A stretch of 64,000 nucleotides of DNA, from positions 492,837 through 556,836 of the forward strand of contig CALUXB010000001.1 in the NCBI GenBank assembly GCA_944324645.1, written 5' to 3'. Positions within the stretch are counted from its first letter, which is position 1. Each line of letters begins with the position of its first letter. The stretch comes from an uncultured Elusimicrobiales bacterium (lineage in GTDB: Bacteria > Elusimicrobiota > Elusimicrobia > Elusimicrobiales > Elusimicrobiaceae). The position numbers and the translations under genes were made by a program. Shown here piece by piece: positions 1,455 to 54,061 of this stretch. The notes beneath the pieces are model-generated. The model was not told where the DNA came from. It ran no database searches and was given only the letters and a program-made list of their open reading frames with translations.

Positions 1455-1465
1455 GGAGCAGCATT

Positions 1466-1954: not shown

Positions 1955-1992
1955 GTAAGGGGTTTTATTAGCAAAAGCGTAGGAGAGAATAA

Positions 1993-2547: not shown

Positions 2548-2559
2548 TCGGGTGGAAAA

Positions 2560-3090: not shown

Positions 3091-3103
3091 CAAAGAGGCG
3101 CCT

Positions 3104-3613: not shown

Positions 3614-4311
3614 AACACATTGGGATTATGAGAAAATGGAGCAAACAAGCCGGTTTTACGCTGACAGAAGTATTGTTGGCGGTAATGATTGTCGGACTGA
3701 TTTCTGTTGCTTTGGCCTCTTTGACCCGTGCAGCAGCCCGGGAAGCGGGCATAGGCCGCAGCAAGATTATGCTGCGTAACAACCTTTCTTTGTTTGTGCG
3801 CACGTTGCGGGCGGATATGTCTCAGGCTACGCGTGTGGATTATTTGGCAGGCGAAGCAGCGTGTAATTCTAGTAAAGGGGTGGCTTTGTTGCAAATTGCC
3901 CAAAATGTGGATACGGATGATAATTTAATTTTGCACAATGTAACTACCGACGGAGCTTCTGCCGTTACCCAAACGGCCAAATATATCACATATTGCTTTG
4001 CTTGTGGTTCAGATGCAACGAATATTGTGCCATCTACTGCCACGCGCGGTGGGAAGATTTATCGTGTGACTAGAAGCAGCCGTTATTCGGCTGGGGATGC
4101 AGCCTGCACGATGTTAAATTCAAGTGATTTAATTTTGGATCATGTGAAATATATACCAGGCAGTTATTATGTTCCTTCTTTTACGGCCGATTCTTTTAGC
4201 CGCAGCTGGACCAATAGTTTGCTGTCCATCAAAATTATTACAGAGTTAAACAGCACTCCGGTTGTGAATGAGGTGGTAGAAGAAACTTTTGCTATGCCTA
4301 TGGGGTATTGA
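3610..4311 (+). CDS. Minor pseudopilin, GspJ/PilW-like
   Basis: The longest pilin-like protein of the operon (233 residues), as expected for GspJ/PilW. A 15-residue leader ends in SKQAG before FTLTEVLLAVMIVGLISVAL; Glu is at mature position 5. The motif TEVLLAVMIVGL is typical of the J/W class. The gene overlaps the preceding I-like gene by 4 bp and ends 9 bp before the K-like gene. The predicted product is processed by prepilin peptidase and inserted in the inner membrane. The subunit assignment rests on length, order and the N-terminal motif. Confidence 0.75.
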   Translation: MKHIGIMRKWSKQAGFTLTEVLLAVMIVGLISVALASLTRAAAREAGIGRSKIMLRNNLSLFVRTLRADMSQATRVDYLAGEAACNSSKGVALLQIAQNVDTDDNLILHNVTTDGASAVTQTAKYITYCFACGSDATNIVPSTATRGGKIYRVTRSSRYSAGDAACTMLNSSDLILDHVKYIPGSYYVPSFTADSFSRSWTNSLLSIKIITELNSTPVVNEVVEETFAMPMGY

Positions 4312-4320
4312 GAGGAAACT

Positions 4321-4773
4321 ATGAAATTAAATCGCAAGGGCGCAGCTTTAATGCAAGTGTTGTTAATTACTGTCATTCTGGCGGGTCTAGCCACGATGTT
4401 GCTGAGGGCTTCTCTCTCTCGTACAACGTCGGCCCGGCGTACACGGCGTACGGTTTCTGCCCAGGTGTTGATACAAGCGTGTATGGCAGAGGTAAATACG
4501 CTGTGGTCTAAAAAAACTCCGGAAGCTTTCAGGCGTGATTTGCAAGGCGTTGGCAACAGCGGCGTGCCCTATATGTATTGCGGGGGCAGTCAAACCAATA
4601 CCAGCACGTGTCCTTCTGGCGACATCCAAGAAGATTATATTTGCACAATAGATGACCCGTACGGTGGTGACGCCTATCAAATAAGAGCCTATTTTGCGGA
4701 AGATTCTAATGCTAATAACGGACAGATGTTGCAAATTGTATATGAAGTGATTCAGGGTAGCGATGCTTTATAA
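4321..4773 (+). CDS. Minor pseudopilin, GspK/PilX-like
   Basis: A 150-residue protein with MKLNRKGAALMQVLLITVIL at its N terminus. It lacks the usual Glu at mature position 5 (Gln is present) and has the small-residue G-A-A-L start seen in GspK/PilX tip subunits, which also often lack Glu5. It is much shorter than classical GspK (about 300 residues), so PilX is the closer match in size. It lies directly after the J/W-like gene and is the last pilin-like gene of the operon. A small C-terminal domain contains Cys residues that probably pair. Confidence 0.7.
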   Translation: MKLNRKGAALMQVLLITVILAGLATMLLRASLSRTTSARRTRRTVSAQVLIQACMAEVNTLWSKKTPEAFRRDLQGVGNSGVPYMYCGGSQTNTSTCPSGDIQEDYICTIDDPYGGDAYQIRAYFAEDSNANNGQMLQIVYEVIQGSDAL

Positions 4774-6552: not shown

Positions 6553-6581
6553 TTGACAAATAGTCATAAATTTGCTATAAT
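6553..6581 (+). promoter_or_regulatory. Perfect sigma70-type promoter at the head of the phage block
   Basis: TTGACA at 6553-6558, a 17-nt spacer, and TATAAT at 6576-6581 preceded by TGC (extended -10). Both hexamers match consensus fully, which is rare in a chromosome and suggests strong host-polymerase transcription unless repressed. The predicted +1 is near 6588, leaving about 180 nt of leader before the small terminase gene. A short inverted repeat TGAC-N5-GTCA (6554-6566) overlaps the -35 box. Confidence 0.8.
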
Positions 6582-6587
6582 TAATAT

Positions 6588-6617
6588 ATACAAACAATCC
6601 TCTGTTTGTATTTTTTT
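6588..6617 (+). promoter_or_regulatory. Dyad at the predicted transcription start: operator or attenuator
   Basis: ATACAAACA (6588-6596) and TGTTTGTAT (6603-6611) form a perfect 9-bp inverted repeat with a 6-nt loop, followed by six T. It begins at the predicted +1 of the preceding promoter. As DNA it looks like a repressor operator; as RNA it is an AU-rich hairpin plus U-run that could stop transcription after about 30 nt. The sequence alone cannot choose between these. Confidence 0.55.
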
Positions 6618-6766
6618 GTCCTTATTTTCCTCTATCTATCAGCAGGCGGTGCAGAACAATTGTTTGGTTTCTGTTTGCGCCTTTTATCTATTAACTGCGC
6701 TCTGCCAAACCGGGCTTTTATTTGGTCCAGAAAGCAGAGTGCCGTATGCTCACATAGGAGTCCTTT

Positions 6767-7453
6767 TTGAATAAAAAATCTACAAAGTCGGTGTCTTCTT
6801 CTGCATTAAAGAGGCAGGGATTGCCCGGGGGGAAAGCGGCAGTTTCTCTCCCTTGTGTAAAAGAGCAAACGGCGGGCTCTCAGGCGGGGCCTGGGCAGGA
6901 ACTGCTGTTTGAAATCCCGGTTTGTGAGAAACTTCCTTCTCCAATGCCTGCCGCCAAGAAACATTCATCCAAAACATCTTCCTCAGCCGTTATTGGCAAG
7001 GCCGCTTCAAAACCGCTCAAAACGCGCAAAAAAGGCGCCGTAAAACGCCAAACGGGCCGCCAGGCCCCTGCCTATAGCCCGCAGTATTGCGAGCGTTTGC
7101 TGGCGTTTTTTGATGTATCTCCTTTTACAGTTACCGAAGTAATAAAAAAAGACGGCTCCGTAAGCCTGGTGGAAACCGCGGCCGAACTGCCCACCTTTGC
7201 GGCTTTTGCGCGCAGTTTGGGGGTAACGCAGGCGGTGTTGCTGCAATGGGAAGAAAAGCACCCGGATTTTGCCGAAGCCGCCAAAAAAGCGCGTGATTTG
7301 CAGGGGGATATTTTAATTCAAAACAGCCTGCGGGGGAATTATTCTTCTTCTTTTGCCGTATTTACCGCCAAGAATATTTTGGGGTGGAGCGACGGCAAAA
7401 ACGAGCCGCCCGCCGCGGCGGGCCCGCTGGTGGTGCGCTGGGAGAAAGAATGA
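6767..7453 (+). CDS. Phage terminase small subunit
   Basis: A 228-residue protein starting at TTG (6767) with AGGAG six bases upstream. The first 100 residues are Lys/Ser/Pro-rich and probably disordered. The C-terminal half carries a helix-turn-helix-like region (FAAFARSLGVTQAVLLQWEE) and the helical segment around SLRGNYSSSFAVFTAKNILGW, typical of small terminase subunits that recognise phage DNA and hand it to the large subunit. Its TGA overlaps the ATG of the large-subunit gene. It is the first structural gene after the strong promoter at 6553. The long basic N-terminal extension is unusual and could bind DNA. The family call is by pattern and position. Confidence 0.75.
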   Translation: MNKKSTKSVSSSALKRQGLPGGKAAVSLPCVKEQTAGSQAGPGQELLFEIPVCEKLPSPMPAAKKHSSKTSSSAVIGKAASKPLKTRKKGAVKRQTGRQAPAYSPQYCERLLAFFDVSPFTVTEVIKKDGSVSLVETAAELPTFAAFARSLGVTQAVLLQWEEKHPDFAEAAKKARDLQGDILIQNSLRGNYSSSFAVFTAKNILGWSDGKNEPPAAAGPLVVRWEKE

Positions 7454-8769
7454 AAAAGAAAAACTCTTCGCCTTGCGTTACTATTCCGTATAAACCGCGC
7501 TATCCGCAGACGCTGATTCACCAAGCGTTGGAAACGCATCGCTTTTGCGTTCTGGTGACGCACCGGCAAATGGGCAAAACCGTCTGCGCGGTCAACCATT
7601 TGCTTAAAAGCGCGCTGTTGTGCCCCCGTCCGGCACCGCGCTATTTTTATATTGCTCCGTTTTTAAAACAGACCAAACTAATCGCCTGGGATTATGTCAA
7701 ACGTTTTACAGCGGTGCTGCCGGGGGTAAAACTGTCGGAAACGGAGCTTTGTGTGCAGTTGCCCAACGGCGCAAAAATTTGGCTGTTGGGGGCCGACAAT
7801 CCAGACGCGCTGCGCGGCACTTATGCCGACGGTGTAGTGCTAGACGAATACGCCCAAATCAAACCCGACGTATTTGATGAAATTGTGCGCCCTATGCTTC
7901 TTTCTCGCAACGGTTGGGTGTTGTTCACGGGGACTCCTAAGGGGCAGAATCAATTTTACGAACTCTACAACTACGCCGGCAAAGCCGCCCAGCAGGACGG
8001 GCAAACCTGGTGGTGCGGTGTATTTCCTGCCGATGAAACGGGGGTCATCGCCCCGCAGGAGCTGGAGGAAATCCGCCGCCGCACGCCGGAGCATTTGTTC
8101 CGCCAGGAATATTTGTGCGATTTTACGGCGGATGCAGAAGACGTGCTGATAGCTTCTTCTTTGGTGTCGCAGGCGTGCGCGCGGCGCTACGGCGGGGCGG
8201 AAATTGCCCACGCGCCCAGAATTATAGGGGTGGATCCTGCGCGTTTTGGGGCGGACCGCAGCGTTATTTTCAGGCGGCAGGGGCTGCAGGCTTTTGCGCC
8301 GGCAGTACTGCATAAAACCGACCATATGAGCTTAGCCGCCCGCGCCGCACAGGAGATAGAGGCCTTTCATCCGGACGCGGTTTTTATAGACGCCGGGTGC
8401 GGCGGCGGCGTGATAGACCGGCTGCGCCAGCTGGGGTTTTGCGTGACGGAAATCCACTTTGGTTCCGCCCCGCTCAAAGCCGGCCAGTACGCCAATAAAC
8501 GCGCCGAAATGTGGGGGGAAATGCAGCAATGGCTGCAAGCCGGAGGCGCTTTGCCGGCGCTGGCGGAGCTTAAGGCGGATTTATGCGGCGTGCGCTATGG
8601 TTTTGACGCGGCCGGGCGGCTGAAGCTGGAGAGCAAAGACGAGCTCAAAGCCCGCAGCGGCCGCAGCCCCGATTTGGCTGACGCGTTGGCGCTGACATTT
8701 GCCTTGCCTGTTAGAAAAACGGGCCGCGGCGGCGGGGAGTTTGCCCGTACGGAATATGAAGTGCTGTAA
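7450..8769 (+). CDS. Phage terminase large subunit
   Basis: A 439-residue motor-nuclease. ATPase part: Walker A-like HRQMGKT at about residues 38-44 and Walker B VVLDE with Asp132/Glu133. Nuclease part (RNase H fold): GVDPARFGADRS with Asp262, FIDAGCGG with Asp314, and PDLADALALTF with Asp408/Asp411, a plausible metal-binding acidic set. In this family the protein cuts concatemers and pumps DNA into the prohead. I chose ATG 7450 (ATGA overlap with the small-subunit stop) rather than the in-frame 7384 start, which would only translate codons inside the upstream gene. The catalytic residues are all present, so the motor looks intact. Confidence 0.93.
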   Translation: MKKKNSSPCVTIPYKPRYPQTLIHQALETHRFCVLVTHRQMGKTVCAVNHLLKSALLCPRPAPRYFYIAPFLKQTKLIAWDYVKRFTAVLPGVKLSETELCVQLPNGAKIWLLGADNPDALRGTYADGVVLDEYAQIKPDVFDEIVRPMLLSRNGWVLFTGTPKGQNQFYELYNYAGKAAQQDGQTWWCGVFPADETGVIAPQELEEIRRRTPEHLFRQEYLCDFTADAEDVLIASSLVSQACARRYGGAEIAHAPRIIGVDPARFGADRSVIFRRQGLQAFAPAVLHKTDHMSLAARAAQEIEAFHPDAVFIDAGCGGGVIDRLRQLGFCVTEIHFGSAPLKAGQYANKRAEMWGEMQQWLQAGGALPALAELKADLCGVRYGFDAAGRLKLESKDELKARSGRSPDLADALALTFALPVRKTGRGGGEFARTEYEVL

Positions 8770-9060
8770 GAATGGCACTTGCGCAATAACAATAAGAGGT
8801 AAAATTTTGCCTGCGCGGAATATGGAGCGCTGTTAAAAAACGTGCAATAGAGTCTAGGGCGCATACAAGAACGGAGGCTATCTCTCAGACAATCTGCGTA
8901 ACGTGTGCTAAACAGATTGTTGCTTGCGGGTATGTTTGCAACGCTTGCTAAAATAAAATTTAGAGCAAAATGAGGCGCTTAAAGAAATGGGATAAATAAA
9001 AATACTAGCATAAAAAATATTTTTTCAGAAGATAAAATTTTAAAATGCTAACAATAAATG
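8770..9060. other. Non-coding gap with a diverged copy of the terminase 3' end
   Basis: No convincing gene. Bases 8806-8837 resemble the last 30 bases of the terminase gene (8740-8769); translated in the same register they read F-A-C-A-E-Y-G-A-L against F-A-R-T-E-Y-E-V-L. This looks like the tail of a second, diverged terminase gene, a possible recombination scar. The rest is AT-rich. Confidence 0.5.
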
Positions 9061-9089
9061 TTGACAAAACTTACAAATTATGCTATAAT
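9061..9089 (+). promoter_or_regulatory. Second perfect sigma70-type promoter within the phage block
   Basis: TTGACA 9061-9066, a 17-nt spacer ending in TGC, TATAAT 9084-9089: the same architecture as the promoter at 6553. It probably drives the portal and downstream virion genes, with a leader of about 600 nt. A short repeat AACA-N5-TGTT (9050-9062) overlaps its -35 box and faintly echoes the core of the dyad at 6588. Confidence 0.75.
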
Positions 9090-9694: not shown

Positions 9695-11278
9695 ATGAAC
9701 GCAAACGATATGCAACAGGCGGATTTTTTCCGCACCCGCTACGAAGATATGAAAACCCAAGCGCAACAATGGCAAAGCACTTGGAAAGAATTGGCTAAAT
9801 ATATCGCGCCGACGCGCGGTTTTTTTGACGGGGACCGCCCCGCAGACGGGCGCAAAATAGACCACCGCGCCCTGATAGACTCCGACCCGCTGCTGGCTGT
9901 AGAGGTGCTCAGCGCGGGGATGGTGTCTGGGCTGACCAGCCCCAGCCGCAGCTGGTTTGAGCTGTCGCTTTCCGATGAAAAGTGTATGAAACAGCAAGGC
10001 GTGCACGCCTGGCTGTATGAAGTGCGCCGCCGGATGGAAGAGGTGTTTGCCCGTTCTAATATTTACCATACTTTGCACAGTTTTTATCAGGAAATTTCCG
10101 TCTTTGGTACGGCGGCATTTCTGTTGGAAGAGGATATGGACCGCGTACTCTGCTGCCGGGCTTTTACTGCGGGGGAATATGTGCTGGACTGTGACGGAAA
10201 AGGCAACGTGAACAGCTTTGGACGGGAGTTTTGGATGACGCCGGAGCAAATGCAGAATCAATTTGGTTTAGATGCGTTGCCCCTTTCTGTGCGCCGTGCG
10301 GCGCAGGAAAAGCGCGGCGGTTGGTTTAAAGTGCTGCACGTTATTTTGCCCAATCCGCAAGCAGATGAGCGCAAGTTAGACGCAGCGCATATGCCTTACC
10401 TTTCGGCCTATTTTACGCCGCAGGGGGAAATGCTGCGCCGCGGAGGATACCGCGAATTTCCGGTCATTGCCGCGCGCTGGGAAGTGCGCAACAGCAGCGA
10501 CATATACGGCCGCGGCCCCGGCTGGAAAGCGTTGGGCGATGTGAAAATGCTGCAAAAAATGCAAAAGACCAAACTGGTGGCGCTGGACAAAAATACCAAC
10601 CCGCCTATGATGGTCTCTGCCAATGTGCAGGGGGAAGTCAACCTGCTGCCCGGCGGCCTGACGCGCTACAGCGGCAGCGGCTCAGACGGGGCCGTTAAGC
10701 CCGCTTATCAAGTGCCGGTGGATTTAAACGCGTTGGAACAGAGTATAGAGCGCGTAAAACAAACCATTAAAGGGCAATTCTTTGCCGACGTGTTTTTAAT
10801 GCTCAGCACGCAGAACTTTTCCAATATGACCGCTACCGAAGTGGCGGAGCGGCACCAGGAAAAAATGCTGGTGCTGGGCCCGGTGTTGGAGCGGCTGAAA
10901 AATGAACTGCTGGACCCTTTGATAGAACGCAGCTTTGCCATTATGCTTCGTCGGGGCGTTATCCCGCTGCCGCCAGCTGAAATACAGGGAAAAGAGATGA
11001 AAGTGCAATATGTTTCTATGATTGCCCAAGCGCAAAAACAAAGCGGTATGGCGGCTTTGCAGCAAGGCATTGCCTTTACCAGCAATTTGGCGCAAGGCAA
11101 CCCGCAGGTGCTGGATAAAATTAATTTTGACGCCGCGTTGGAAGAAGGGCTGGATATGCTGGGGGTATCGCCCCGGGTGCTCCGCTCTGATGAAGAAACA
11201 GCCCAAATCCGTGCCCAACGCCAACAGCTCTTGCAGGCGCAGGCCGCCGAAGCGGCGGCAAAAAACAGCGCACAGTAA
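9695..11278 (+). CDS. Podovirus-type portal (head-to-tail connecting) protein
   Basis: A 527-residue protein resembling the head-tail connector family of T7/BPP-1-like podoviruses. The N terminus contains FFRTRYEDMKTQAQQWQSTW and a conserved stretch ending GMVSGLTSPSRSWFELSL. Central signatures include EISVFGTAAFLLEED and YGRGPGWKALGDVKMLQKM, and the C-terminal helical part carries a Gln/Ala-rich tail. Twelve copies of such proteins form the portal ring at one capsid vertex, the docking site for the terminase and the tail. The start ATG 9695 follows AGGTGATTT. It lies 0.9 kb after the terminase gene, a wide gap for a phage operon. Length and motifs look complete. Confidence 0.9.
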   Translation: MNANDMQQADFFRTRYEDMKTQAQQWQSTWKELAKYIAPTRGFFDGDRPADGRKIDHRALIDSDPLLAVEVLSAGMVSGLTSPSRSWFELSLSDEKCMKQQGVHAWLYEVRRRMEEVFARSNIYHTLHSFYQEISVFGTAAFLLEEDMDRVLCCRAFTAGEYVLDCDGKGNVNSFGREFWMTPEQMQNQFGLDALPLSVRRAAQEKRGGWFKVLHVILPNPQADERKLDAAHMPYLSAYFTPQGEMLRRGGYREFPVIAARWEVRNSSDIYGRGPGWKALGDVKMLQKMQKTKLVALDKNTNPPMMVSANVQGEVNLLPGGLTRYSGSGSDGAVKPAYQVPVDLNALEQSIERVKQTIKGQFFADVFLMLSTQNFSNMTATEVAERHQEKMLVLGPVLERLKNELLDPLIERSFAIMLRRGVIPLPPAEIQGKEMKVQYVSMIAQAQKQSGMAALQQGIAFTSNLAQGNPQVLDKINFDAALEEGLDMLGVSPRVLRSDEETAQIRAQRQQLLQAQAAEAAAKNSAQ

Positions 11279-11622: not shown

Positions 11623-11931
11623 ATGAAGAAAAAAACACTGGAAAAACGCAACGCGGCCGATTTGGCCGCCGTGTTAAAACTGCCGCAAGGCAGGCGGCTG
11701 CTGTGGCGTGTGCTGCAGGCGGCCCAAGTGAGCGGGCACGGTTTTGTGCCCGGGGACCCGTGCGCCACCGCATTTCATTGCGGGCAGAAGAGCATTGGTC
11801 TTTTTTTGCAGGAACAAATTGCGGAAATTTCGCCGCTTTTGTTAGCACAGATGCAGGCGGAGTATTTGTCTGAAGTCACTTCCCAGCAAAACGAAATTAA
11901 CCGCCAAAGTGAGGAAATGCACAATGTCTGA
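11623..11931 (+). CDS. Bbp19-like phage protein
   Basis: A 102-residue protein matching the pattern of the Bbp19 family of podoviruses: L-x-x-V-L-x-x-x-x-G-R-x-L-L-W near the N terminus, a central G-Q-K-S-I-G-L-F-L, then an amphipathic helix. The family lies between portal and scaffold genes, exactly its position here; its molecular role is poorly defined. ATG 11623 has no clear Shine-Dalgarno sequence, and an in-frame GTG at 11377 would add 82 implausible residues. Its stop overlaps the start of the scaffold gene, suggesting coupled translation. Confidence 0.7.
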   Translation: MKKKTLEKRNAADLAAVLKLPQGRRLLWRVLQAAQVSGHGFVPGDPCATAFHCGQKSIGLFLQEQIAEISPLLLAQMQAEYLSEVTSQQNEINRQSEEMHNV

Positions 11932-12529
11932 AGAGAATAACACCGCTTCTTCAGCGGTACAACCCGATTTGCAAACGGCGCAGACTGCACAAGTCTGCCC
12001 CGGGCCCAGCGGCGCAGAGGACGCCTCTGCCTCCGATAGGCCAAACGAAAATAACCCGGCAGAAACTTCTTTGCCTGCCGGCCTATACCCAGACCTGAAA
12101 CTGCCGGAAGAGTTAAACGGATGTGAAGAAAATTTTGCGTCGTTTAAAAAACTGGCCTCTGAGCTAAAACTGCCTGCCCAAGCCGCAAAAAAACTGGTGG
12201 AGTGGGAAAGTAAAGCCGCTGCGGACGGACGCCAAAACGCGCAGTATGCGCGGGCGCAAATTTTGCAGCGGTGGACGGAGCAAACCCGCCAGCTTTTTGG
12301 CCCGGGCTACCAACAGGAAGTAGCCCGCGCTTTGGCGGCGGCGGAGCGTTTTGGCGGGCCGGAGCTGCGCGCACTGCTTGATGCTACGGGGCTGGGCAGC
12401 CACCCGGCGGTGGTAAAGACGTTTCATCAAATCAGCCAACAAATCGCAGAAGACACGTCTGTGTCCGGGCGCGTGCGCGCCGCTGCAGACAAGACTTTTG
12501 CCGAGGCGTTGTACGGAAAAGCGCAGTAA
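11924..12529 (+). CDS. Phage scaffold / capsid assembly protein
   Basis: A 201-residue, acidic, Ala/Gln-rich protein. Residues 1-55 are Ser/Asn/Pro-rich and probably disordered. The rest is helical with the pattern LKLPEELNGCEENFASFKKL and LDATGLGSHPAVVKTFHQI, as in scaffold proteins directly upstream of podovirus major capsid genes. Such proteins template the prohead and then leave. ATG 11924 has GAGGA upstream and overlaps the preceding stop; an in-frame GTG at 11909 is less likely. No protease motif is visible, so a maturation protease fused to the scaffold is not supported. Confidence 0.75.
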   Translation: MSEENNTASSAVQPDLQTAQTAQVCPGPSGAEDASASDRPNENNPAETSLPAGLYPDLKLPEELNGCEENFASFKKLASELKLPAQAAKKLVEWESKAAADGRQNAQYARAQILQRWTEQTRQLFGPGYQQEVARALAAAERFGGPELRALLDATGLGSHPAVVKTFHQISQQIAEDTSVSGRVRAAADKTFAEALYGKAQ

Positions 12530-12580: not shown

Positions 12581-13558
12581 ATGGCAATCATTGCAGATAA
12601 ATATTACAACCTGATGGACTATGCCAAACAGTTTGACCAATCCGGTCAAGAGTTGGCTATTGCTGAGGTGCTCAGCAAGTCCAATGACATTATTGGCGAT
12701 GCACTGGTGACGGAAAGCAACTTAGACAGCGGCCACGAATACGCCGTGCGCACCGGTATCCCCGAAGGTACCTGGCGCCGCGCCTACCAAGGCATTGAGC
12801 CGGCCAAAGCCACTACCAAAGTGGTGGTGGAAAGCTACGGCACGCTCTCTGCCTATTCCGTGGTGGATAAACTCATTGCAGAAAAAGGCGGCAACTTGCA
12901 GTCTGTGCGCACCGGGCAGAGCAAGGCGATTATTGCCGGTATGTCCAACACGATGGCGCGCAACCTCATTTACGGCAACGCCGGAGAAACACCGGAACGT
13001 TTTACCGGCTTGGCCGCTCGCTATAACACGCTGACCGATGCGGAAAGCGCGCGCAACGTTATTGACGCCGGCGGCGAAACGGACGGGCAGAACTCCTCCA
13101 TTTATTTGGTGGTGTGGGATACGGACAAAGTGTTCACGTTCTTCCCCAAAGGTTCCAAAGCCGGTATCCAGCGTGTGGACCACGGCTTGGTCAATCATAT
13201 TGACTCCGACGGCAACGAATACCCCGCCTACAAAGAATATTTTGAATGGAAAATGGGCCTTGCCGTACAGGACTGGCGCTACGCCGGGCGCATTTGCAAC
13301 ATTGACGTCAAAAACGTGCCCGCCAGCTTGATTGACAATATGTGCGAATTGGAAGAGCGTATCCAGAGCCTGAACCTGGGCAAGCCGTTCTGGTATATGA
13401 ACCGCACCGTCAAGGCCGCTTTGCGCAAGCTGACCAGCAACAAGCAAAACGTCCAGTACACGCCGGACCAGATTACGTCCCGCCCGCTGATGACGTTTAA
13501 CGAAATCCCCGTCCATATCTGCGACGCGATTGAAGACACCGAAGACGTGGTGGCTTAA
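12581..13558 (+). CDS. Phage major capsid protein
   Basis: A 325-residue protein starting MAIIADKYYNLMDYAKQ, resembling BPP-1/Bbp17-type major capsid proteins (presumed HK97 fold). Recognisable regions are the helical N terminus, the turn around EYAVRTGIPEGTWRRAYQGI, the long central GQSKAIIAGMSNTMARNLIY helix, and the C-terminal domain with YKEYFEWKMGLAVQDWRYAG. There is no cleavable delta domain of the HK97 type. Codon use is more biased than in flanking genes, as expected for the most abundant virion protein. It follows the scaffold gene and precedes a cluster of strong hairpins that may isolate its expression. Confidence 0.9.
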   Translation: MAIIADKYYNLMDYAKQFDQSGQELAIAEVLSKSNDIIGDALVTESNLDSGHEYAVRTGIPEGTWRRAYQGIEPAKATTKVVVESYGTLSAYSVVDKLIAEKGGNLQSVRTGQSKAIIAGMSNTMARNLIYGNAGETPERFTGLAARYNTLTDAESARNVIDAGGETDGQNSSIYLVVWDTDKVFTFFPKGSKAGIQRVDHGLVNHIDSDGNEYPAYKEYFEWKMGLAVQDWRYAGRICNIDVKNVPASLIDNMCELEERIQSLNLGKPFWYMNRTVKAALRKLTSNKQNVQYTPDQITSRPLMTFNEIPVHICDAIEDTEDVVA

Positions 13559-15025: not shown

Positions 15026-15613
15026 ATGGTATCAAAATTAGACATTTGTAATATAGCTTTGGCTCATTTAGGACAAGAGCCTATTTCTTCTTTGGGACAA
15101 GAAGATGAACGCGCCCGCCGCTGCAGTCTGTTTTATGAACCAGTAAAAAAAGAGGTGCTCCGTACCCATAATTGGGCTTTTGCAGGCAGTCAGATTTCGC
15201 TGGCTTTGCTGGCTGGTAATAGTGAAGAAGAATGGCCGTATATGTATGCCTATCCGCAGGATTGCCTGTTTCTGCGGCGGGTGTTTGCCCCGGGCCCTCA
15301 GGGCCGCAACGGCGCTTTTAAAGAGGTGTATAACCAGGATTTACACGCAAGAGTAATTTTTTCTGGCATAGAACAAGCCCGGGCGGAATATACGCGGGAT
15401 GTAAAGGATGAAAGCTTATTTGACCCAGCCTTTGTGAAAGCATTTTCTTTGGCTTTAGCGGCAGATTTGGCAGTAGCGCTGACCGGGGATAGCACATTGG
15501 CGCGCACCGTATTGCAGAAATATACGTTGGTGTTAGAAGAAGCGCGCCGCAGCAATATGAGCGAGAATTTTGACATACGCCGCGCAGACAGTGCTTTTGT
15601 GGAGGCTCGTTAA
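15026..15613 (+). CDS. Tail tubular protein A-like (T7 gp11-type adaptor)
   Basis: A 195-residue protein. The opening LDICNIALAHLGQEPISSL and the region FYEPVKKEVLRTHNWAFA are hallmarks of the tail tubular A / gatekeeper family, which binds beneath the portal and links it to the nozzle. The C-terminal part is helical (AFSLALAADLAVALTGD), as expected. ATG 15026 has AGGAG upstream. Its stop is 1 bp before the next gene's start, so the two are coupled. Family members are usually 180-210 residues, so the gene looks intact. Confidence 0.88.
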   Translation: MVSKLDICNIALAHLGQEPISSLGQEDERARRCSLFYEPVKKEVLRTHNWAFAGSQISLALLAGNSEEEWPYMYAYPQDCLFLRRVFAPGPQGRNGAFKEVYNQDLHARVIFSGIEQARAEYTRDVKDESLFDPAFVKAFSLALAADLAVALTGDSTLARTVLQKYTLVLEEARRSNMSENFDIRRADSAFVEAR

Positions 15614-15614
15614 T

Positions 15615-18221
15615 ATGCCTATACATACCATACAGACCAACTTTTCCGGCGGGGAGATTAGCCCGCACCTCTACAGCCAGGCTGCAGCCCAGGGGGAAGG
15701 ATCCTGGTTAAAGACGGCCTGCAACTTTTTAGTGCACCCGCAGGGAGGGGCTTCTAACCGGCCCGGCACAGCGTATGTGGCCAGTGCCAAATACAGCAAT
15801 AAAAATGCCCGTTTAATCCCATTTGTGCTGGGAGAAGAAGAAGCCTATGTATTGGAGTTGGGGCATAAGTATATGCGGGTGCACGCCCCAGCGGGAACTT
15901 TGCTTGATACAAATGGGGCTGTGTATGAGCTGGAGAGCCCCTACACGGAGTATGACTTGCCTGATGTGCAGTATGTACAGTATGAACAAACGCTTTTTTT
16001 GGTTCATCCCAGCTATTATCCCAAAAAATTACTGCGCGGAACGGACGGTTATTTTACCCTTTCGGATATGGTGATAAAAGACGGGCCGTTTATGTTGCCC
16101 AATACGGAGGAAAACAAAAAGCTGCGTTTGGTCAGCCAAAGCGATACGATTGTATCGGAAGGGGTGAGGGCCACGCTGTCTTTTTTGCCGGTAAGCTATC
16201 CCAACTATTTTATTCAGGCCTACTGGAAAGGGGAGCGTTTTTATAATCCCAGTGACTATGGCTTTAATGTGGGGGAAGTGGTCTATGCTTTTAACCTGCG
16301 TTGCAGTGCAGACGGCTGCCAGGCCTACAATCAGGGCGGCGTGCTGCGTATAGAATCCCCCAAAGCAACCGGCGGTGATTTTAACGGTACGGAGCTGATG
16401 ATTTACTACCGGCAGGGAATTATCGCCCCGCCGAATTTAATTGTTACACACGCATTGAGCGGCGGATGTAACGCCGGAGAAATTATCAGCCAAGGAGAAC
16501 CGAAATGGTATCTGGAGGCGGATTTTGACGCGTTTGTTCCGGGGCAGGTGGGGGCTTTGTTTGCTTTGCGCCACCGGGTGGAAAGCCCTTCAGAAAGCGG
16601 CACATTAACCTATCAGGAAACATCTAAAGTAATTAAAACCGGGGGAGATTGGCGCTTGCGTACGACGGGGAGCTGGTATGGGGAAATTGTGCTTGAGTCT
16701 TCAACAGATAATACAACGTGGGAGAAAGTAAAGCATTTTACCAAAGCACAAGGAGAAGATAATTTAAACACTTTGGGCAGTTTAGAAGTGTCGGCCAAAA
16801 TGTATTATTTGCGCATTCGCTGCCAGGGTATTAACGGAGAAATGGGATATGTGCTGCAGGCAGACTCTTTTAACCAAGAGGGGATAGTCAAAGCAGAAAA
16901 TTATGTAAGCGAACAGAAAATGCAAGTCAGCATCCAGCGTGCGTTGGGGGTGGAAGAAGAGTGGACGGCAGATTGGTCTGAGGGATCTTTCAGCCCGCAA
17001 TCCGGTTACCCTTCCTGTGTATTTTTCTATCAAGACAGGCTGGGGTTTGCCGGCAGTAAAAAAGAACCCCAAACCATTTGGTTTTCCAAGACGGGAGAGT
17101 ATGAAGATTTTGGCTACTTGCGCACTTTGGAAGATTCGGATTCTATCAGCTTAACGCTCTCCGGCAAAAAATTGAATGCCATCAATTCCGTGGCGGTCGG
17201 CGCAAAATTACTGTTATTTACAGCCGGCAGCGAATGGAGCCTGGGCTGTTCCGGCGCGCTGACTCCGTACAATATAGAAATTCACCAGGAAGGGGAGCGC
17301 GGCGCCAGCCGTGTGCCGCCCATTGTGGTGGGGAACCGTACCCTGTTTGTGCAGTCGCGCGGAAGCGTACTGCGGGATTTCTATTACCAGTACAGTACGG
17401 CTTCTTATACCGGGCGGGATTTAACATTGCGGGCACGTCATTTATTTTTTAATCAAGAAATAAAAGAAATGGCTTACCAACAAGAGCCGGACAATCTGAT
17501 TTGGTGCGTGTTGGGAGACGGAAGTTTGCTCTCTTTAACCTATTTGCCGGAGGAAGATATTTTTGCTTGGACGCGCCATCAGACGCAAGGCAAGTTTTTA
17601 AGCATATGCAGTATCCCGTCCAGCGGCTATGATCAGACCTGGCTGCTGGTAGATCGCAATGGCGTGCGTTGTGTGGAGCGTTTATTGCCGCGTCTGACTA
17701 GCAAAGAAACACAAGACCAAGTATTTCTAGATTGCAGCGTATCTAAAAAAAGCAGCGAAACTTTTACAGAATTGGGAGGCCTTGCTCATTTAGAAGGTGT
17801 TGCCGTCAGTGTGTTGGCAGACGGCAGCCCGCTTAGCGGTTTGATGGTTACGAACGGCAAAATACAGCTGCCTTCGGCTGTGCATACGGCCCACGCGGGT
17901 TTGCCTTACCAAGCCACATTGCAGACTTTGCCGCCTGATTATACGTTTTCAGACGGAACACAACAAGACCGCAAACGCCGTCCCGCACAAGTGATGATAA
18001 AAGTGTTAGACAGTTTAGGTGGAGAGATAGGTATGACGGAGGAAAAGTTGGATGCGCTGGCTGGATATGCGGCCTCTGTGTACGGGGAACCGGCCCCGCT
18101 GCAGACGCGTGATTACATTAAACTTTTTCCCGCTTGCCATAGTTATTTTCCGTCTGTTACGTTTGTGCAAAAAGATCCGCTGCCTGTTACCTTGTTAGCC
18201 ATTATTACCCAGCTTTGTTAG
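15615..18221 (+). CDS. Tail tubular protein B-like nozzle protein
   Basis: An 868-residue, beta-rich protein. The N terminus QTNFSGGEISPHLYSQ followed by N-F-L-V-H-P-Q-G-G-A-S-N-R-P-G-T is highly typical of podovirus tail nozzle proteins (T7 gp12-like in role). Further conserved parts include FYQDRLGFAGSKKEPQTIWFS and GERGASRVPPIVVGNRTLFV. The protein is expected to form the tapered tail tube tip through which DNA leaves. I use ATG 15615, with GGAGG nine to ten bases upstream, not the in-frame 15570 start that lies inside gene A. A strong terminator follows 8 bp later, so this ends a sub-operon. Confidence 0.9.
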   Translation: MPIHTIQTNFSGGEISPHLYSQAAAQGEGSWLKTACNFLVHPQGGASNRPGTAYVASAKYSNKNARLIPFVLGEEEAYVLELGHKYMRVHAPAGTLLDTNGAVYELESPYTEYDLPDVQYVQYEQTLFLVHPSYYPKKLLRGTDGYFTLSDMVIKDGPFMLPNTEENKKLRLVSQSDTIVSEGVRATLSFLPVSYPNYFIQAYWKGERFYNPSDYGFNVGEVVYAFNLRCSADGCQAYNQGGVLRIESPKATGGDFNGTELMIYYRQGIIAPPNLIVTHALSGGCNAGEIISQGEPKWYLEADFDAFVPGQVGALFALRHRVESPSESGTLTYQETSKVIKTGGDWRLRTTGSWYGEIVLESSTDNTTWEKVKHFTKAQGEDNLNTLGSLEVSAKMYYLRIRCQGINGEMGYVLQADSFNQEGIVKAENYVSEQKMQVSIQRALGVEEEWTADWSEGSFSPQSGYPSCVFFYQDRLGFAGSKKEPQTIWFSKTGEYEDFGYLRTLEDSDSISLTLSGKKLNAINSVAVGAKLLLFTAGSEWSLGCSGALTPYNIEIHQEGERGASRVPPIVVGNRTLFVQSRGSVLRDFYYQYSTASYTGRDLTLRARHLFFNQEIKEMAYQQEPDNLIWCVLGDGSLLSLTYLPEEDIFAWTRHQTQGKFLSICSIPSSGYDQTWLLVDRNGVRCVERLLPRLTSKETQDQVFLDCSVSKKSSETFTELGGLAHLEGVAVSVLADGSPLSGLMVTNGKIQLPSAVHTAHAGLPYQATLQTLPPDYTFSDGTQQDRKRRPAQVMIKVLDSLGGEIGMTEEKLDALAGYAASVYGEPAPLQTRDYIKLFPACHSYFPSVTFVQKDPLPVTLLAIITQLC

Positions 18222-20108: not shown

Positions 20109-21719
20109 ATGAGAGTACCTGTTTATCAACCCCACATAAGCTATCAGCAAACTTTGGCCCGTAATGTCAGGCTGGCCCAGCCTCTGCGGGAAGCGTCTGG
20201 CCGGAAAGAATGGACCGACTTACAATCCATCGCCGGCCTGATGGAAAGTGCATATGCGTTGCCCACTGCCCTCAATCAGACTGCAGAAGCGTTTGCTTCT
20301 TCCCAAAACCAATGGGAAAAAGAATGGGCGGAGGTGTCAAGAAAAATAAGCGGGCCCACGCAGGCCAAGAGGCAAGAATCCGCGGCTGAACAAATAAAAG
20401 CGGCATCCGCCGTGTCTGGCAAACAAGAGCAGGCACAAAAGGCGTCTTGGCAAGCAAAAGCCGAAACAAAAAACGCCTTTTCTTCTGCGGCGCGCGCACA
20501 GCAACTGCGTTTTGCGCGGGACGAAGTTTTTTCTTCCACTCCCGCAGCTGTTTCCGGCGCAGAAGCGGGCGCGAACACAAGTGCCGTAGAACGGCTGGAT
20601 GAAAAATTTATTTCGTTGTTTTCAGAGGAGGCGCAAGTTCCCGGCGCAGCGGAGAGCTTACTGGCGCAGGATTATGTCATCTTGCGTCAGGAGATAGAAA
20701 ATTTGGAAGACAAATCCCGCCGCTTTCAAGCCCAGCAAAATATACAGCAGGGGGCTGCTTCTTTTGTGCAGACGGCCGCCTTGGTCCGCACGCCGCGCGC
20801 TTTGGAAAACTATATGCAGGATAATTTGGCCTCCGCCGCCCAGGAAGCACGCCGCGCGGGCATAGAGGAAAAAGAATGGAAAGCCAAAAGCCAAATGTTG
20901 TTGCGGCAGGCAGTACGCCATAATGTGGAAGCAGCCTTGGAGGCGGGAGAAGCAGACCGGGCGGAAAAAATGTACCGTCATTTTTCGTCCCGTCTTTTAC
21001 CGCAAGAACAAACGCTTTTGCAACACAAGCTCACAAGCCGCCGGGCGGACTTGCTGGCCGAAAAACTCTGGCCTGCAGCACGCCAATTATGCACAGATGA
21101 AAAAGGGAGAATAGACGAAAAAAGCTTGGCTTCTTTTACGACGCAGCACACCACAGAGGAAGACAAAGATTTCCAGCAGGAGCTTTCTTCTTGCCTGCAA
21201 GCCCGCTTGGCCCAAAGTTACCGGCGGGATTTGCTCCACCGTGCTGCGGGATATCAACGCTTGTTACATACCACGGCAACGGAAGATTTGGCTTGTTTAA
21301 TGCTTGGCGATGAATTTAGTGCACAAGATTTATATTCTAACCGTTTGGCGCTGCACCGGTTGCAGTGCGCCCCGCAGCAATCTTCTTCTGCGCCGGTGTT
21401 TAACCGGCTCTACCAAGCCATTTTGTCAGGCCAGGCGGATGAGAACGCCACAGAAAAAGCATTGCGGGACGGCGCGCTTTCTGCCAGAGATTATTGGCGC
21501 CTTAAAAAACACACCGCTTTAGCCCAAGCGGCGGAAACAGATGGCAGGGCCCGCCTGCTCTGCCAGGCGCTGACACGTTTTTGCCGCCAAAATGAGTTAT
21601 CTGCCCAAGAAAGCGAAGAGGTGCGTTACTTTGTGTTCACCGCGGGAGAAAGTGTGCCGGAGCAAATTCAAGCGGCACATACCGTTAAAAACATCTTTCT
21701 TTTACAGGAGAATAAATAA
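20109..21719 (+). CDS. Probable phage internal virion protein (gp15-like position)
   Basis: A 536-residue, almost entirely helical, Ala/Gln/Glu-rich protein beginning MRVPVYQPHISYQQTLARN. I do not recognise a family by motif. Its place after the gp13-like and gp14-like genes and before the tail fibre is that of T7 gp15, an ejection protein that lines the DNA channel, so a virion-core role is likely. The start has AAGGAG; the stop shares one base with the tail-fibre start. No separate gp16-like transglycosylase gene follows, and no transglycosylase motif is visible here. Confidence 0.6.
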   Translation: MRVPVYQPHISYQQTLARNVRLAQPLREASGRKEWTDLQSIAGLMESAYALPTALNQTAEAFASSQNQWEKEWAEVSRKISGPTQAKRQESAAEQIKAASAVSGKQEQAQKASWQAKAETKNAFSSAARAQQLRFARDEVFSSTPAAVSGAEAGANTSAVERLDEKFISLFSEEAQVPGAAESLLAQDYVILRQEIENLEDKSRRFQAQQNIQQGAASFVQTAALVRTPRALENYMQDNLASAAQEARRAGIEEKEWKAKSQMLLRQAVRHNVEAALEAGEADRAEKMYRHFSSRLLPQEQTLLQHKLTSRRADLLAEKLWPAARQLCTDEKGRIDEKSLASFTTQHTTEEDKDFQQELSSCLQARLAQSYRRDLLHRAAGYQRLLHTTATEDLACLMLGDEFSAQDLYSNRLALHRLQCAPQQSSSAPVFNRLYQAILSGQADENATEKALRDGALSARDYWRLKKHTALAQAAETDGRARLLCQALTRFCRQNELSAQESEEVRYFVFTAGESVPEQIQAAHTVKNIFLLQENK

Positions 21720-23875
21720 TGAGCGTTTCTTACACATCTGCCAAAGTAATTTATGAGGGCAACGGACAAACTGCACAATGGGATATTCCCTTTCCCTATA
21801 TAAGTGATGAAGATTTGCAACTCTATCTGGTAGAGGCAGACGGCACGCAGCAAGCGTTGGAAGCGGACTTTACCATAGATTCGGATTTAAACGCCGTGCT
21901 TTATCCTATGCCCGATAGCCAAACACCGCTGTTGCAAAGCGGGCAAAAGCTGATGATTTTGCGCCGTACCCCATTAACCCAGCAGACGGAATTTGAAGAA
22001 CAGCAAGCCATTGACCCTTTTGTGTTGGAAGAAGGCTATGACAAGGCTATAATGATAGCCCAAGAACAGGCTGAAGAATTGACGCGTGCTATTAAGTTTC
22101 CGGCTTCTTGCAGTAATGTGCAAACTAATGCGCAAAGCTATTTGTCCCAAATTACCGGCGGGGTAACAGCGGCTCAGCTTTCCGCCCAGGCCGCCCAAAC
22201 CAGCGCAGACAACGCCGCCCAATCGGCAGCAGACGCTTCAGACGAAGCGGACCGCTCCGCTTGGAATGCAGACAATGCGCAGCAGGCTCAAATAAACGCC
22301 GCGGTGTCATATAATCAAGCCAAACAAGCTGCGGAGAGTGCTTCTTCCTCAGCAGCGTCTGCTGTAAGCAAAGCCGCTGAAGCGCAAACGGCTTCCACCT
22401 CGGCGCAGACTAGCCTGACAGCTGCCCAGCAAAGCGCGCAGGCCGCCGCTGCCTCTGCTGCAGAAGCGCAGGGTGCGCTACAAGCACATAACAGCAATGC
22501 CCAAGCGCACGCGGATATCCGCTCCACGCTTTCCGGCAAAGCAGAGCAAACGGCTTTGGTGGCGCATACGGCCCGCACGGACAACCCGCACGCGGTAACC
22601 AAAGCGCAGGTAGGCCTTGGCAATGTGGACAACACCTCAGACGCAGACAAGCCTGTGTCTGCCGCGGTGCAAGCGGCTTTGGATTTAAAGGCCAACAGCG
22701 CAGAGGTGGACGCCGATATTTCTGATATTAATGCGGCTTTAGAGCGCAAACAGGACGACGACGAGTTCCACCCGGAGGACTACGGCTGGCCCGATATCCG
22801 CCCCGCCGCGCGGCCTAATGCGGTTGTTCTGCTTGCCGGAGTAAAATCAGATTATTCCGCTTATGACAATTTGGGTTTCAAAGCCACCTGTACGGGGGGG
22901 TATAACGTTTTTATTGACGGGGTGCAATATGGCGACACTTACGCTAGCAAAAGCCAATGCTCTATCACTTGGAGTCAGTATTATGCTACGACTGGCTTTC
23001 CTGTTACCCAGCCCGAAGCCTTAATGGCGCACATCGTGCAAATTGTGCCTGCGGTGACAGGGAATACCATTACGGAATTTCAAATGGTGCGGGTGGCTGC
23101 CAGCGGGGCGGAAGCGCAGGGGCTTTTGTGGCTGCATTTAACTACACAGACGGCCCTTCCCTTTGGCAGCGTGTCTGTAAGCGGGCAATATAGCAACAAT
23201 TTGCTAAAAGCGATTAGCAGCGTGCAGAACAGCTTAAAAATAGGCAATTCCAATAATACTTTTTATGGTACGGCGGGACTGGCCTATCTGCCGGAGTGTG
23301 ATATGGCAGAGTCTATAAATCCAGGCATACTCAGTTTTGTGATAGACAGCGCACTCAAGAAAATCACGCTGGCAAACAGAAAAACAACAGGCAGTTTATA
23401 CCGGGCTTTTCACGGGTGCGTAAAATTAGAGGAAATTATTTTAAAGAATGCTTCTCTTTGCCCTTATGAAGTCCACCAAGCTTTTGCAAACTGTCAGGCT
23501 TTAAAACATCTTCCTCCGATAGACTTTAGCCAAGTCACTTCGGCCTATCAGTTTTTATACAACGGCTACAACTTAAAAGACTTGGTGTTGGACCTGTCTT
23601 ATGCGCATTTATTGCAAGTGTTCCATTTTTACAATACGCCCGGGCTGAAAGGTTTAATCGTCAGTCCGCAGGCCCCGTTTGATTATGCTACCGCACCGCA
23701 AATTAACGTGTCCAATACGGGCCTTGACCAAGCCGCGCTGGTGGCACTGTTTAACAGTTTGCCCACAGTAACGGCGGGGCAGGTAATTAATATTACGGGT
23801 GCAACAGGTGCGGCTTCTTTGACGGCAGAGCAGCTGGCTATTGCCACGAATAAGGGCTGGACGGTAACGAGATAG
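21719..23875 (+). CDS. Tail fibre protein with T7 gp17-like N terminus and BspA-type leucine-rich C-terminal region
   Basis: A 718-residue mosaic. Residues 1-150 resemble the T7 tail-fibre attachment domain (Y-x-G-N-G-x-T-x-x-W-D-I-P-F-P-Y, then ILRRTPLTQQTEF). Residues about 150-270 are an Ala/Gln/Ser-rich coiled coil. A phage-fibre repeat with KAQVGLGNVDNTSDADKP follows (about 290-315). A middle domain with several aromatic residues leads to about 540-660, where short units (FHGCVKLEEIIL, FANCQALKHLP, LYNGYNLKDLVL) look like BspA-type leucine-rich repeats. The last 40 residues carry LTAEQLAIATNKGWTV. The C-terminal part probably binds the host receptor. AGGAG precedes the start. Confidence 0.85.
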   Translation: MSVSYTSAKVIYEGNGQTAQWDIPFPYISDEDLQLYLVEADGTQQALEADFTIDSDLNAVLYPMPDSQTPLLQSGQKLMILRRTPLTQQTEFEEQQAIDPFVLEEGYDKAIMIAQEQAEELTRAIKFPASCSNVQTNAQSYLSQITGGVTAAQLSAQAAQTSADNAAQSAADASDEADRSAWNADNAQQAQINAAVSYNQAKQAAESASSSAASAVSKAAEAQTASTSAQTSLTAAQQSAQAAAASAAEAQGALQAHNSNAQAHADIRSTLSGKAEQTALVAHTARTDNPHAVTKAQVGLGNVDNTSDADKPVSAAVQAALDLKANSAEVDADISDINAALERKQDDDEFHPEDYGWPDIRPAARPNAVVLLAGVKSDYSAYDNLGFKATCTGGYNVFIDGVQYGDTYASKSQCSITWSQYYATTGFPVTQPEALMAHIVQIVPAVTGNTITEFQMVRVAASGAEAQGLLWLHLTTQTALPFGSVSVSGQYSNNLLKAISSVQNSLKIGNSNNTFYGTAGLAYLPECDMAESINPGILSFVIDSALKKITLANRKTTGSLYRAFHGCVKLEEIILKNASLCPYEVHQAFANCQALKHLPPIDFSQVTSAYQFLYNGYNLKDLVLDLSYAHLLQVFHFYNTPGLKGLIVSPQAPFDYATAPQINVSNTGLDQAALVALFNSLPTVTAGQVINITGATGAASLTAEQLAIATNKGWTVTR

Positions 23876-24142: not shown

Positions 24143-24446
24143 AGAGCTGTTTAAAATGTTAGGCACGCTGGCGGTGTCTGTGGGGGGCACGTGGGTGGCT
24201 TTGCATAAAAAGCTGGAGAACCTGTCCACGCGCCTGCAGGCGGCGGAAAAGAACTTAGACAAAATGGAGCAAAACCACCGCTCCGACATTGTGGAAGTGA
24301 AAAGCAAAATTCGCTCCGCTGAGACCACACTTTCTGAAATCCGCGCACAGTATGCGGTGACTTCGGCAGACATTAAGAATTTGACTTCTTTGGTGTCTGA
24401 GCTACGCTCCGATGTCAAAACGCTGATTTCGCAGGGGGTGCAATAA
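24135..24446 (+). CDS. Small phage membrane protein with coiled coil
   Basis: A 103-residue protein with a short hydrophobic N terminus (MLGTLAVSVGGTWVAL) and a long heptad-like coiled coil to the end (KLENLSTRLQAAEKNLDKM and on). It overlaps the previous gene by 8 bp and the endolysin gene by 1 bp, so it belongs to the lysis cassette. It could be a holin accessory protein or a membrane-tethered lysis regulator. It is not the spanin, since a better spanin pair lies downstream. Confidence 0.65.
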   Translation: MNEELFKMLGTLAVSVGGTWVALHKKLENLSTRLQAAEKNLDKMEQNHRSDIVEVKSKIRSAETTLSEIRAQYAVTSADIKNLTSLVSELRSDVKTLISQGVQ

Positions 24447-24865
24447 TGCCGGTATTTAGCAAAAAAAGCGAGCAGCGTTTAAGCACCTGCCACCCGGATT
24501 TGCAGGCGGTGTGCCGCGAGCTCATCAAACAGTACGACGTTGCTGTGCTGTGCGGGCACCGAAACAAAGCCGAGCAAAACGCCGCTTTTGACGCAGGCCG
24601 CAGCCGCCTGATTTACCCGCAGAGCAAGCACAACAGCCAGCCTGCTTTAGCGGTGGATATCGCCCCGTACCCGATAAACTGGGACAATTTGTACCGCTTT
24701 CGGGAAATGCTCTGCCGCTTTGACGCGCTGGCGCGGCTCATGCGGGAGCGCGGGGAGATAGAAAGCGAATTTGAATACGGCGCGGACTGGACTAGTTTAA
24801 AGGACTATCCGCATATTGAAATAAAAAGTTACTCTCCGCAAAATGCGGGGGAAAAGGAGAAATAA
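24446..24865 (+). CDS. Endolysin, M15 family peptidase (VanY-like, L,D/D,D-peptidase)
   Basis: A 139-residue M15-type metallopeptidase common in phage lysis cassettes. The zinc site is visible as S-K-H-N-x(4)-L-A-V-D-I-A-P-Y with His62 and Asp71, and P-H-I-E-I with His123 near the C terminus. Such enzymes cut the peptide stems of peptidoglycan at the end of infection. There is no signal peptide, so release should depend on a holin, consistent with the small membrane genes on either side. The N terminus resembles family members beginning with F-S-x-x-S-x-x-x-L-x-x-C-H-P-D-L. It appears intact. Confidence 0.9.
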   Translation: MPVFSKKSEQRLSTCHPDLQAVCRELIKQYDVAVLCGHRNKAEQNAAFDAGRSRLIYPQSKHNSQPALAVDIAPYPINWDNLYRFREMLCRFDALARLMRERGEIESEFEYGADWTSLKDYPHIEIKSYSPQNAGEKEK

Positions 24866-24867
24866 GA

Positions 24868-25053
24868 ATGGAATGGATACAGACAAACTGGAGTGATGTG
24901 CTCAGCATTATCGGTGCGGTGATTTTGATTATCACCTTGGTGGTCAAGCTAACCTCCACCGACAAAGACGACACCGTATGGGCGCAGGTGCTAAAAGTAC
25001 TTTCGGCCCTGTCGCTGTGCAACCCAGACGGCTCGTTTATTAGCAAGAAATAA
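24868..25053 (+). CDS. Holin-like small membrane protein
   Basis: A 61-residue protein with one strongly hydrophobic segment (VLSIIGAVILIITLVVKL) and a charged C-terminal half (TSTDKDDTVWAQVLKVLSAL). Size, single helix and position between endolysin and spanin genes fit a holin or pinholin. AAGGAG precedes the start; the stop shares a base with the next ATG. The functional assignment is by context. Confidence 0.7.
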   Translation: MEWIQTNWSDVLSIIGAVILIITLVVKLTSTDKDDTVWAQVLKVLSALSLCNPDGSFISKK

Positions 25054-25259
25054 TGGGGACGGCCTTAGTAGTATTGACTGTGTGCGGGGGGCTTTTGGCG
25101 TTTGGCGCGGTGTGCTGGCGCGCCGGGCACAAAAGCGCGCAAAACCAAGTGCTTAAAGAGAGGGAAAAAGAAAATGCCAAAGTGGATAAAATTGTTGCCG
25201 CTTATGCTCATCTTAGCCGGGACGAGTGCCTTGAGCGGCTGCGCGGCACTCAGAAGTAA
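25053..25259 (+). CDS. Inner-membrane spanin subunit (Rz-like)
   Basis: A 68-residue protein with an N-terminal membrane anchor (ALVVLTVCGGLLAFGAVCW) and a charged helical periplasmic part. In a +1-shifted frame within it starts a lipoprotein gene (25174), the hallmark embedded Rz/Rz1 arrangement. The pair is expected to fuse inner and outer membranes as the last step of lysis, which only makes sense in a host with an outer membrane. It is shorter than lambda Rz, but many spanins are small. Confidence 0.75.
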   Translation: MGTALVVLTVCGGLLAFGAVCWRAGHKSAQNQVLKEREKENAKVDKIVAAYAHLSRDECLERLRGTQK

Positions 25260-26080: not shown

Positions 26081-26258
26081 AACTCTCTCCTTTAGCTACA
26101 AACTGGGCACCAAATAGTGCTCTTAAATAGTATAGCAAAAAAATAAAAAAAAGCAACATAAAGAAAAATCTTAAACTCTACGTGCTGCTTGGGTGTCTTT
26201 GTTAAGTTTAGATTGTTTTTTGTTGGGCTGGGTTTAGACCCCCAAAACGCTTTCTGCT

Positions 26259-26723: not shown

Positions 26724-26880
26724 AACGCTCTCCTTTAAACACAAAATAACTACATCTGAGGGTGTTTGTTTAAGTATAACAAAAACTCAAGAAATAAAGA
26801 AATACTGAGTAGATACAAAGACTTATATCTACCCAATATAGTTTAGCATAAATACCTAAATTATCAAGGATTTGTATTAT

Positions 26881-54004: not shown

Positions 54005-54061
54005 TTGCATTGTTTTTTTTTTTTGATAAATTTTGCTTATGAGCAAAATTTATCAAAAAAA
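54005..54061 (+). promoter_or_regulatory. Pilin 5' element, copy 1: T12 spacer promoter and 44-bp palindrome centred on the ATG
   Basis: TTGCAT (54005-54010), a 16-nt spacer containing twelve T (54013-54024), TAAATT (54027-54032), six bases, then ATG 54039. Bases 54018-54061 form a perfect inverted repeat with 20-bp arms; its 4-nt centre T-A-T-G contains the start codon. No Shine-Dalgarno sequence exists. The -10 position predicts a leaderless mRNA, and the T-tract in the spacer could vary by slippage. Confidence 0.7.

Follow-up and report, generated by a model that had tools for sequence, protein, structure and literature searches.

Two described promoter-terminator arrangements come closest to the one treated here. 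The PR'-tR' pair of lambdoid phages, served by Q proteins (21Q, lambda Q), consists of a phage late-gene promoter with an intrinsic terminator before the first gene, and a short terminated RNA is expected from it; in Pseudomonas aeruginosa, PalpB-tB with AlpA likewise has an intrinsic terminator behind its promoter, with lysis/phage-like genes further downstream (PMC7969949, PMC9371919). In lambdoid Q systems as in that of AlpA, the binding site of the factor lies between -35 and -10, and a -10-like element holds the polymerase (PMC7969949, PMC9371919, PMC6606751). As to gene content, the nearest parallel is given by RcGTA-like gene transfer agents (GTAs), domesticated phage particle clusters that keep conserved genes for structure, packaging and lysis, lack recognised integrase and replication genes, and descend vertically while purifying selection acts on them.

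In this work, we present a computational analysis of P1, a promoter at the head of a phage-like block in a member of a genus with some records named Candidatus Avelusimicrobium (Elusimicrobiaceae, Elusimicrobiota); in the literature searched, no paper on a gene transfer agent or domesticated phage was found for Elusimicrobiota. A cultured isolate that may be a relative, An273, is reported as Elusimicrobium (PMC6069880). P1 is laid out like PR'-tR', and the spacer element that defines the Q/AlpA class, for which we tested, appears to be missing from it. Judged from its sequence and that of its relatives, P1 is probably a maximal sigma-70-type promoter joined to an intrinsic terminator beginning at the first transcribed base.

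Methods

The window is the whole 64-kb stretch of DNA that was analysed, and coordinates refer to it unless a contig is named. Genome-wide statements come from pattern searches of the 1.5-Mb genome, and all start sites were predicted from the position of the -10 element. The comparison set comprised 55 congeneric loci with terS-terL of the same type as in our genome. For covariation, the hairpin arms were aligned by anchoring on their conserved ACAAA/TTTGT core, with the loop swapped for a constant spacer. The infC set consisted of 12 leaders (L210, L243-L252, L254).

Results

Anatomy of promoter P1 and its start-site hairpin

The following elements were located, all on the plus strand.

6553..6581, promoter P1: TTGACA, 17-nt spacer, TG-N and TATAAT; 12/12 match plus extended -10, counterparts in 43 relatives
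6553-6558, -35 element TTGACA of P1, by direct reading and scan
6573-6574, TG of the extended -10, by direct reading
6576-6581, -10 element TATAAT, by direct reading
A6588, predicted +1 of P1, from the -10 position
6588..6611, start-site hairpin ATACAAACA-ATCCTC-TGTTTGTAT: perfect 9-bp dyad with 5' arm starting at the predicted +1 and covariation among relatives
6588-6596, 5' arm ATACAAACA, by direct reading
6603-6611, 3' arm TGTTTGTAT, by direct reading
6611..6617, T7 tract adjoining the hairpin, U-tract of the proposed intrinsic terminator
6618..6766, leader from the terminator to terS, its first 50 nt pyrimidine-rich among relatives (mean 71%)

A preliminary description of this DNA had reported TTGACA-17-TATAAT with an extended -10, followed by a perfect 9-bp inverted repeat and T6 starting at the predicted +1, and each of these elements lies exactly where it had been placed; the first T of the T7 tract is also the last base of the stem, which leaves T6 beyond it. 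P1 scored 12/12 in the promoter scan, with TG present. In the pattern search, TTGACA-N14-TG-N-TATAAT (17-nt spacer) occurred at only two sites of the 1.5-Mb genome, 6553 and 9061, both inside the phage block, and permitting an 18-nt spacer added one further perfect extended promoter, upstream of infC. The small TGAC/GTCA repeat described over the -35 is present (TGAC 6554-6557, GTCA 6562-6565) but not conserved, the closest relative having TTGACAAACAGCCAT there, and it was dropped as an element.

None of 20,000 dinucleotide shuffles of the 60 nt produced a stem of at least 9 bp next to a T6 near +1, and across both strands of the 64-kb window this is the single stem of at least 9 bp that abuts T6. 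The RNA predicted at P1 is about 30 nt long (6588 to about 6617) and the stretch 6588-6617 folds at -7.5 kcal/mol (z -9.2). Intrinsic terminators are also expected to have a stable, G+C-rich stem; predicted stem stability ranges from about -5 to -16 kcal/mol across loci, and a home-made d'Aubenton-type score ranges from -47 to +25 across species. Since the stem of our own genome is A+T-rich and its score is near zero (+1.5), termination at P1 may be partial. Riboswitch and leader-peptide attenuators have leader RNA before the terminator that can fold in another way or code for a peptide; here the stem begins at the predicted +1, and an Rfam search of the 64-kb window returned one tRNA only, with no match at the P1 leader.

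Conservation and covariation across the genus

The arrangement of P1 promoter, hairpin at about +1 and T5-T8 recurs in 44 of the 55 terS-terL loci. Their promoters are exact with a 17-nt spacer in 35 cases and with an 18-nt spacer in five, the other four having one -10 mismatch; 40/44 copies retain all 12 hexamer bases as well as the TG. Hairpins start 4-12 nt downstream of the -10, mostly 7-9, and loops measure from 3 to 16 nt, while the T-run abuts the stem in 44/44 loci (T5-T8; T7 in 34 of them). Each of the 44 hairpins folds better than its own shuffles (mean z -5.1). The covariation score of the arms was 0.247, compared with 0.092 +/- 0.016 for shuffled and at most 0.069 for slid partners, and two-sided changes numbered 29 vs 12. 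Replaced pairs include A-U to U-A beside the core and C-G to G-C or A-U within it. The ACAAA/TTTGT core of the arms is itself nearly invariant, and some sequence constraint beyond what pairing alone explains remains.

Two features expected of an intrinsic terminator are thus found at P1: a hairpin with conserved pairing, seen in covariation and z-scores, and a U-tract right after the stem in every one of the 44 loci. Because the arms covary and loop length is free (3-16 nt) while the U-tract is fixed, the dyad is best read as an RNA terminator and not as an operator of fixed spacing. The preliminary description had offered both, early termination giving an RNA of about 30 nt or repression through an operator at +1; anatomy and covariation support the former and speak against the latter. 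A dimeric repressor would find a perfect dyad at +1, a classical position for repression, with a nearly invariant core, but half-sites of a repressor operator keep a fixed spacing among orthologous promoters, which at P1 varies with the loop and largely refutes this reading. The arms, moreover, are replaced by complementary sequences, the T-run, which an operator does not need, is always kept, and the second genomic copy of the dyad that had been proposed as a check was not found by pattern search of the 1.5-Mb genome, where all other matches carry 3 mismatches. We regard an operator as highly improbable, and it does not follow that a repressor must be encoded elsewhere.

Promoter and terminator also delimit a 30-nt transcription unit, as a stand-alone, trans-acting small RNA gene would, but loop and arms are not conserved past the pairing core and hence no target-pairing stretch is conserved, which makes this the least credible of the readings considered. 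A further candidate, that the hairpin simply terminates the upstream peptidase gene, was rejected: the genes upstream of P1 differ among clades, and the hairpin persists at its 4-12 nt from the -10.

As for the eleven remaining loci, one contig (L022) stops too early to judge, and the other ten, which are intact and lack P1, fall into one clade of the TerL tree, which would fit a single loss or replacement. In eight members of this clade a promoter lies 1.1-2.5 kb upstream of terL; it has a hairpin at +1 but lacks a T-run.

In one clade (L079, L080 and L084-L089) there is, at that same distance from terL, a TTGACA-18-TGCTATACT-type promoter whose +1 hairpin likewise has no T-run, then a conserved, apparently structured region of about 200 nt, which gave no Rfam match besides tRNAs, and an extra ORF of about 100 aa directly before terS. 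On the nearest viral contig (L125), with a capsid 66% identical, the terminase is different and a promoter of the P1 kind was not found.

The phage-like block and its second promoter

The genes and sites below, all on the plus strand, make up the block downstream of P1.

6767..7453, terS, small terminase, TTG start (PHROG 3064, 8e-21)
7450..8769, terL, large terminase (PHROG 2, 5e-52)
9048..9075, imperfect direct repeat CTAACA-N16-CTTACA with a period of 22 bp, lying on both sides of the P2 -35; conserved in the clade to which our genome belongs
9061..9089, promoter P2, second perfect extended promoter, no start-site hairpin; found by scan, counterparts in 45 relatives
9695..11278, portal / head-tail connector, epsilon15-like (about 40% identity to epsilon15)
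11909..12529, probable scaffold protein, by position only (synteny)
12581..13558, major capsid protein (PHROG 212)
15026..15613, tail tubular protein A-like (PHROG 394)
15570..18221, tail tubular protein B-like (PHROG 376)
21719..23875, tail fibre (PHROG 1640)
24446..24865, endolysin (PHROG 465)
24868..25259, holin-like and Rz-like small ORFs, by position and length, with no Pfam match

Behind P1 lie terS and terL, and behind P2 the portal, capsid, tail tubular A and B, fibre, endolysin and small lysis ORFs, in a gene order kept throughout the compared loci. No integrase or replication genes were recognised near the block on reading the ORF lists, part of the ORFs being also searched against family libraries. 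TerL was present in 59/66 genomes of the genus, usually as one intact copy, and its identity to the copy of our genome tracks that of an ABC-F-like core protein (Spearman 0.78, n = 43). Across the genus, copies of the major capsid protein share 84-100% identity, which makes it better conserved than the ABC-F-like protein; its median dN/dS is 0.07, compared with 0.14-0.26 for the other five genes tested. In other genera of the order the portal is absent or below 30% identity. Particle genes without recognised integrase or replication genes, vertical descent and purifying selection are marks of a GTA, as would be particles that package and transfer random host DNA, and for the first three reasons we treat the block as a vertically inherited, putatively functional, gene-transfer-agent-like podovirus cluster.

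P2, with at least 11 of 12 bases, was found in 46 loci about 340-650 nt upstream of the portal gene, a position that holds even with up to about 10 kb of other genes between terL and portal. A hairpin with T-run follows it in 10/46 loci only, and P2 is therefore not in general a second promoter-terminator pair. The CTAACA/CTTACA repeat is a possible regulator site; as a regulon it was discarded, other genomic matches being at control level. In the 18-nt-spacer clade, the first 20 or so bases transcribed from P2 (TAAAAAATAGNAGTAATCCT) are strongly conserved and form no hairpin.

The preliminary description had supposed that the dyad keeps a lethal block silent. This may hold in part, as the hairpin can restrain P1 and with it terS-terL; but the genes from portal to lysis are headed by the hairpin-free full-consensus promoter at 9061, so the P1 hairpin alone cannot silence them and the block must have further control.

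In a middle clade (L056, L057, L058, L059, L061, L067, L068, L073), inserts of up to about 10 kb are found between terL and P2. The insert of L057 (3610-14587, minus strand) holds tandem paralogous secreted proteins of about 450 aa, in block orientation, with weak likeness to ChaN/Tiki (PF04187, below cut-off). Many type IV pilin-like genes surround the phage block in the window (228-4773, 25565-26744, 43666-44118 and 54033-55820).

Start-site hairpins at infC and other host promoters

The promoter of infC (IF3) in our genome (L210, G000:C3:23651-23710, minus strand) reads TTGACACTTTTTAGCGTAACTTGGTATAAT, then AAAAGAGTCCT-aaaa-AGGACGA-T8. The eleven other infC leaders of the genus have hairpins with varying, complementary arms, and T6-T8 occurs in 10/12 overall. 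In TTGACA-18-TG-N-TATAAT, hairpin at about +1 and usually T6-T8 this promoter resembles P1; it differs in serving a host translation gene, in the 18-nt spacer, in the few nt between stem and T-run and in the two of 12 leaders with T4 only. As infC has the same start-site hairpin and T-run, the device is not phage-specific. A perfect promoter with a +1 hairpin and no T-run was seen at apparent rRNA leaders, the rRNA being assigned by eye from leader sequence and contig ends. Together, these cases suggest that the genus habitually places start-site hairpins behind full-consensus promoters, and that the device employed by the phage block is of host type.

The probable rRNA promoters, and likewise those of the deep clade with +1 hairpins and no T-run, would also suit a hairpin that guards the 5' end of the mRNA, any T-run being incidental. 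Protection does not need a T-run, yet one adjoins the P1 stem in all 44 loci, and we hold this explanation of P1 to be quite improbable.

At L211 (G000:C2:70572), a near-perfect promoter with a long hairpin behind it, GGATAAAAAGAC/GTCGTTTTTATCC, stands before a SAM riboswitch aptamer, and a ClpX-like ATPase ORF comes after the aptamer.

Search for an antitermination factor

A specific form of the explanation that we favour, a conditional terminator, would be processive antitermination of the Q/AlpA type, in which a promoter-loaded factor makes the polymerase ignore the terminator. It shares with P1 the layout of promoter, early terminator and phage packaging/lysis genes (PMC7969949, PMC9371919, PMC6606751). 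In 39 aligned P1 copies with the 17-nt spacer, however, no motif beyond promoter-related bases is conserved between -35 and -10, where the factor-binding element should lie, and the initial transcribed region, A+T-rich in all copies, has no distinct conserved hexamer. No protein scored above the Pfam cut-off for the two lambdoid Q families searched, PF06530 and PF03589, though a factor of an unknown family, comparable to AlpA's, is conceivable; and the same hairpin stands at the host gene infC. Antitermination of exactly this type is accordingly unlikely. The variant with a NusG paralogue of LoaP/RfaH type was rejected, the genome having a single NusG.

An unregulated, leaky attenuator that lowers terminase output relative to the P2-driven capsid genes would need no factor. 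A particle requires few copies of terminase, P2 matches P1 in perfection but has no hairpin, the predicted terminators are weak to moderate, and neither the two Pfam Q families nor the NusG count revealed an antiterminator. For the same purpose, however, a weaker promoter would be less wasteful, yet P1 stays full consensus in nearly all species. We consider constitutive attenuation a real contender, if on the whole a rather unlikely one.

Discussion

We propose that RNA polymerase would start efficiently at P1 and that the first 24 nt or so of the RNA would fold as its entire 5' end. Many polymerase complexes would let go an RNA of about 30 nt at the U-tract, terS-terL would be reached by read-through transcripts only, and terminase output would be set by read-through (attenuation), not by initiation. 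As the hairpin occupies the very start of the predicted RNA, there is no room for a riboswitch, leader peptide or upstream antiterminator fold, and read-through would then depend on the terminator's own strength or on a trans factor. That about 40 species have retained a perfect promoter along with a terminator makes a conditional stop the most likely case; it would be relieved when particle genes are wanted, by a trans factor acting on the polymerase or on the hairpin. The complete picture, which we put forward tentatively as one possibility, is that of a domesticated podovirus-type GTA present throughout the genus, its packaging genes switched by a start-site terminator in a host-level mode of control shared with infC; full-consensus promoters would fire permanently into the stop hairpin at +1 and be released by a trans factor distinct from the known Q proteins and from NusG paralogues.

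If this is true, P1 would represent attenuation reduced to a minimum, with promoter and terminator so close that no leader remains for riboswitch or peptide. It would offer a clean test of polymerase escape from a stop within 30 nt of initiation, as well as a way to learn when a phage-particle cluster that appears to be domesticated turns on.

Compared with RcGTA, the block has a podovirus (epsilon15-like) portal and tail where the former is of siphovirus type, and belongs to a different phylum. P1 differs from lambdoid PR'-tR' in a spacer without a conserved Q-binding element and in a genome where no Q homologue (PF06530, PF03589) was found, and from PalpB-tB in having no counterpart of the AlpA spacer element GGGACG. 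Its promoter is an exact consensus and its terminator, unlike tR', begins at +1; in comparison with PalpB-tB, too, the P1 hairpin sits at the start site itself.
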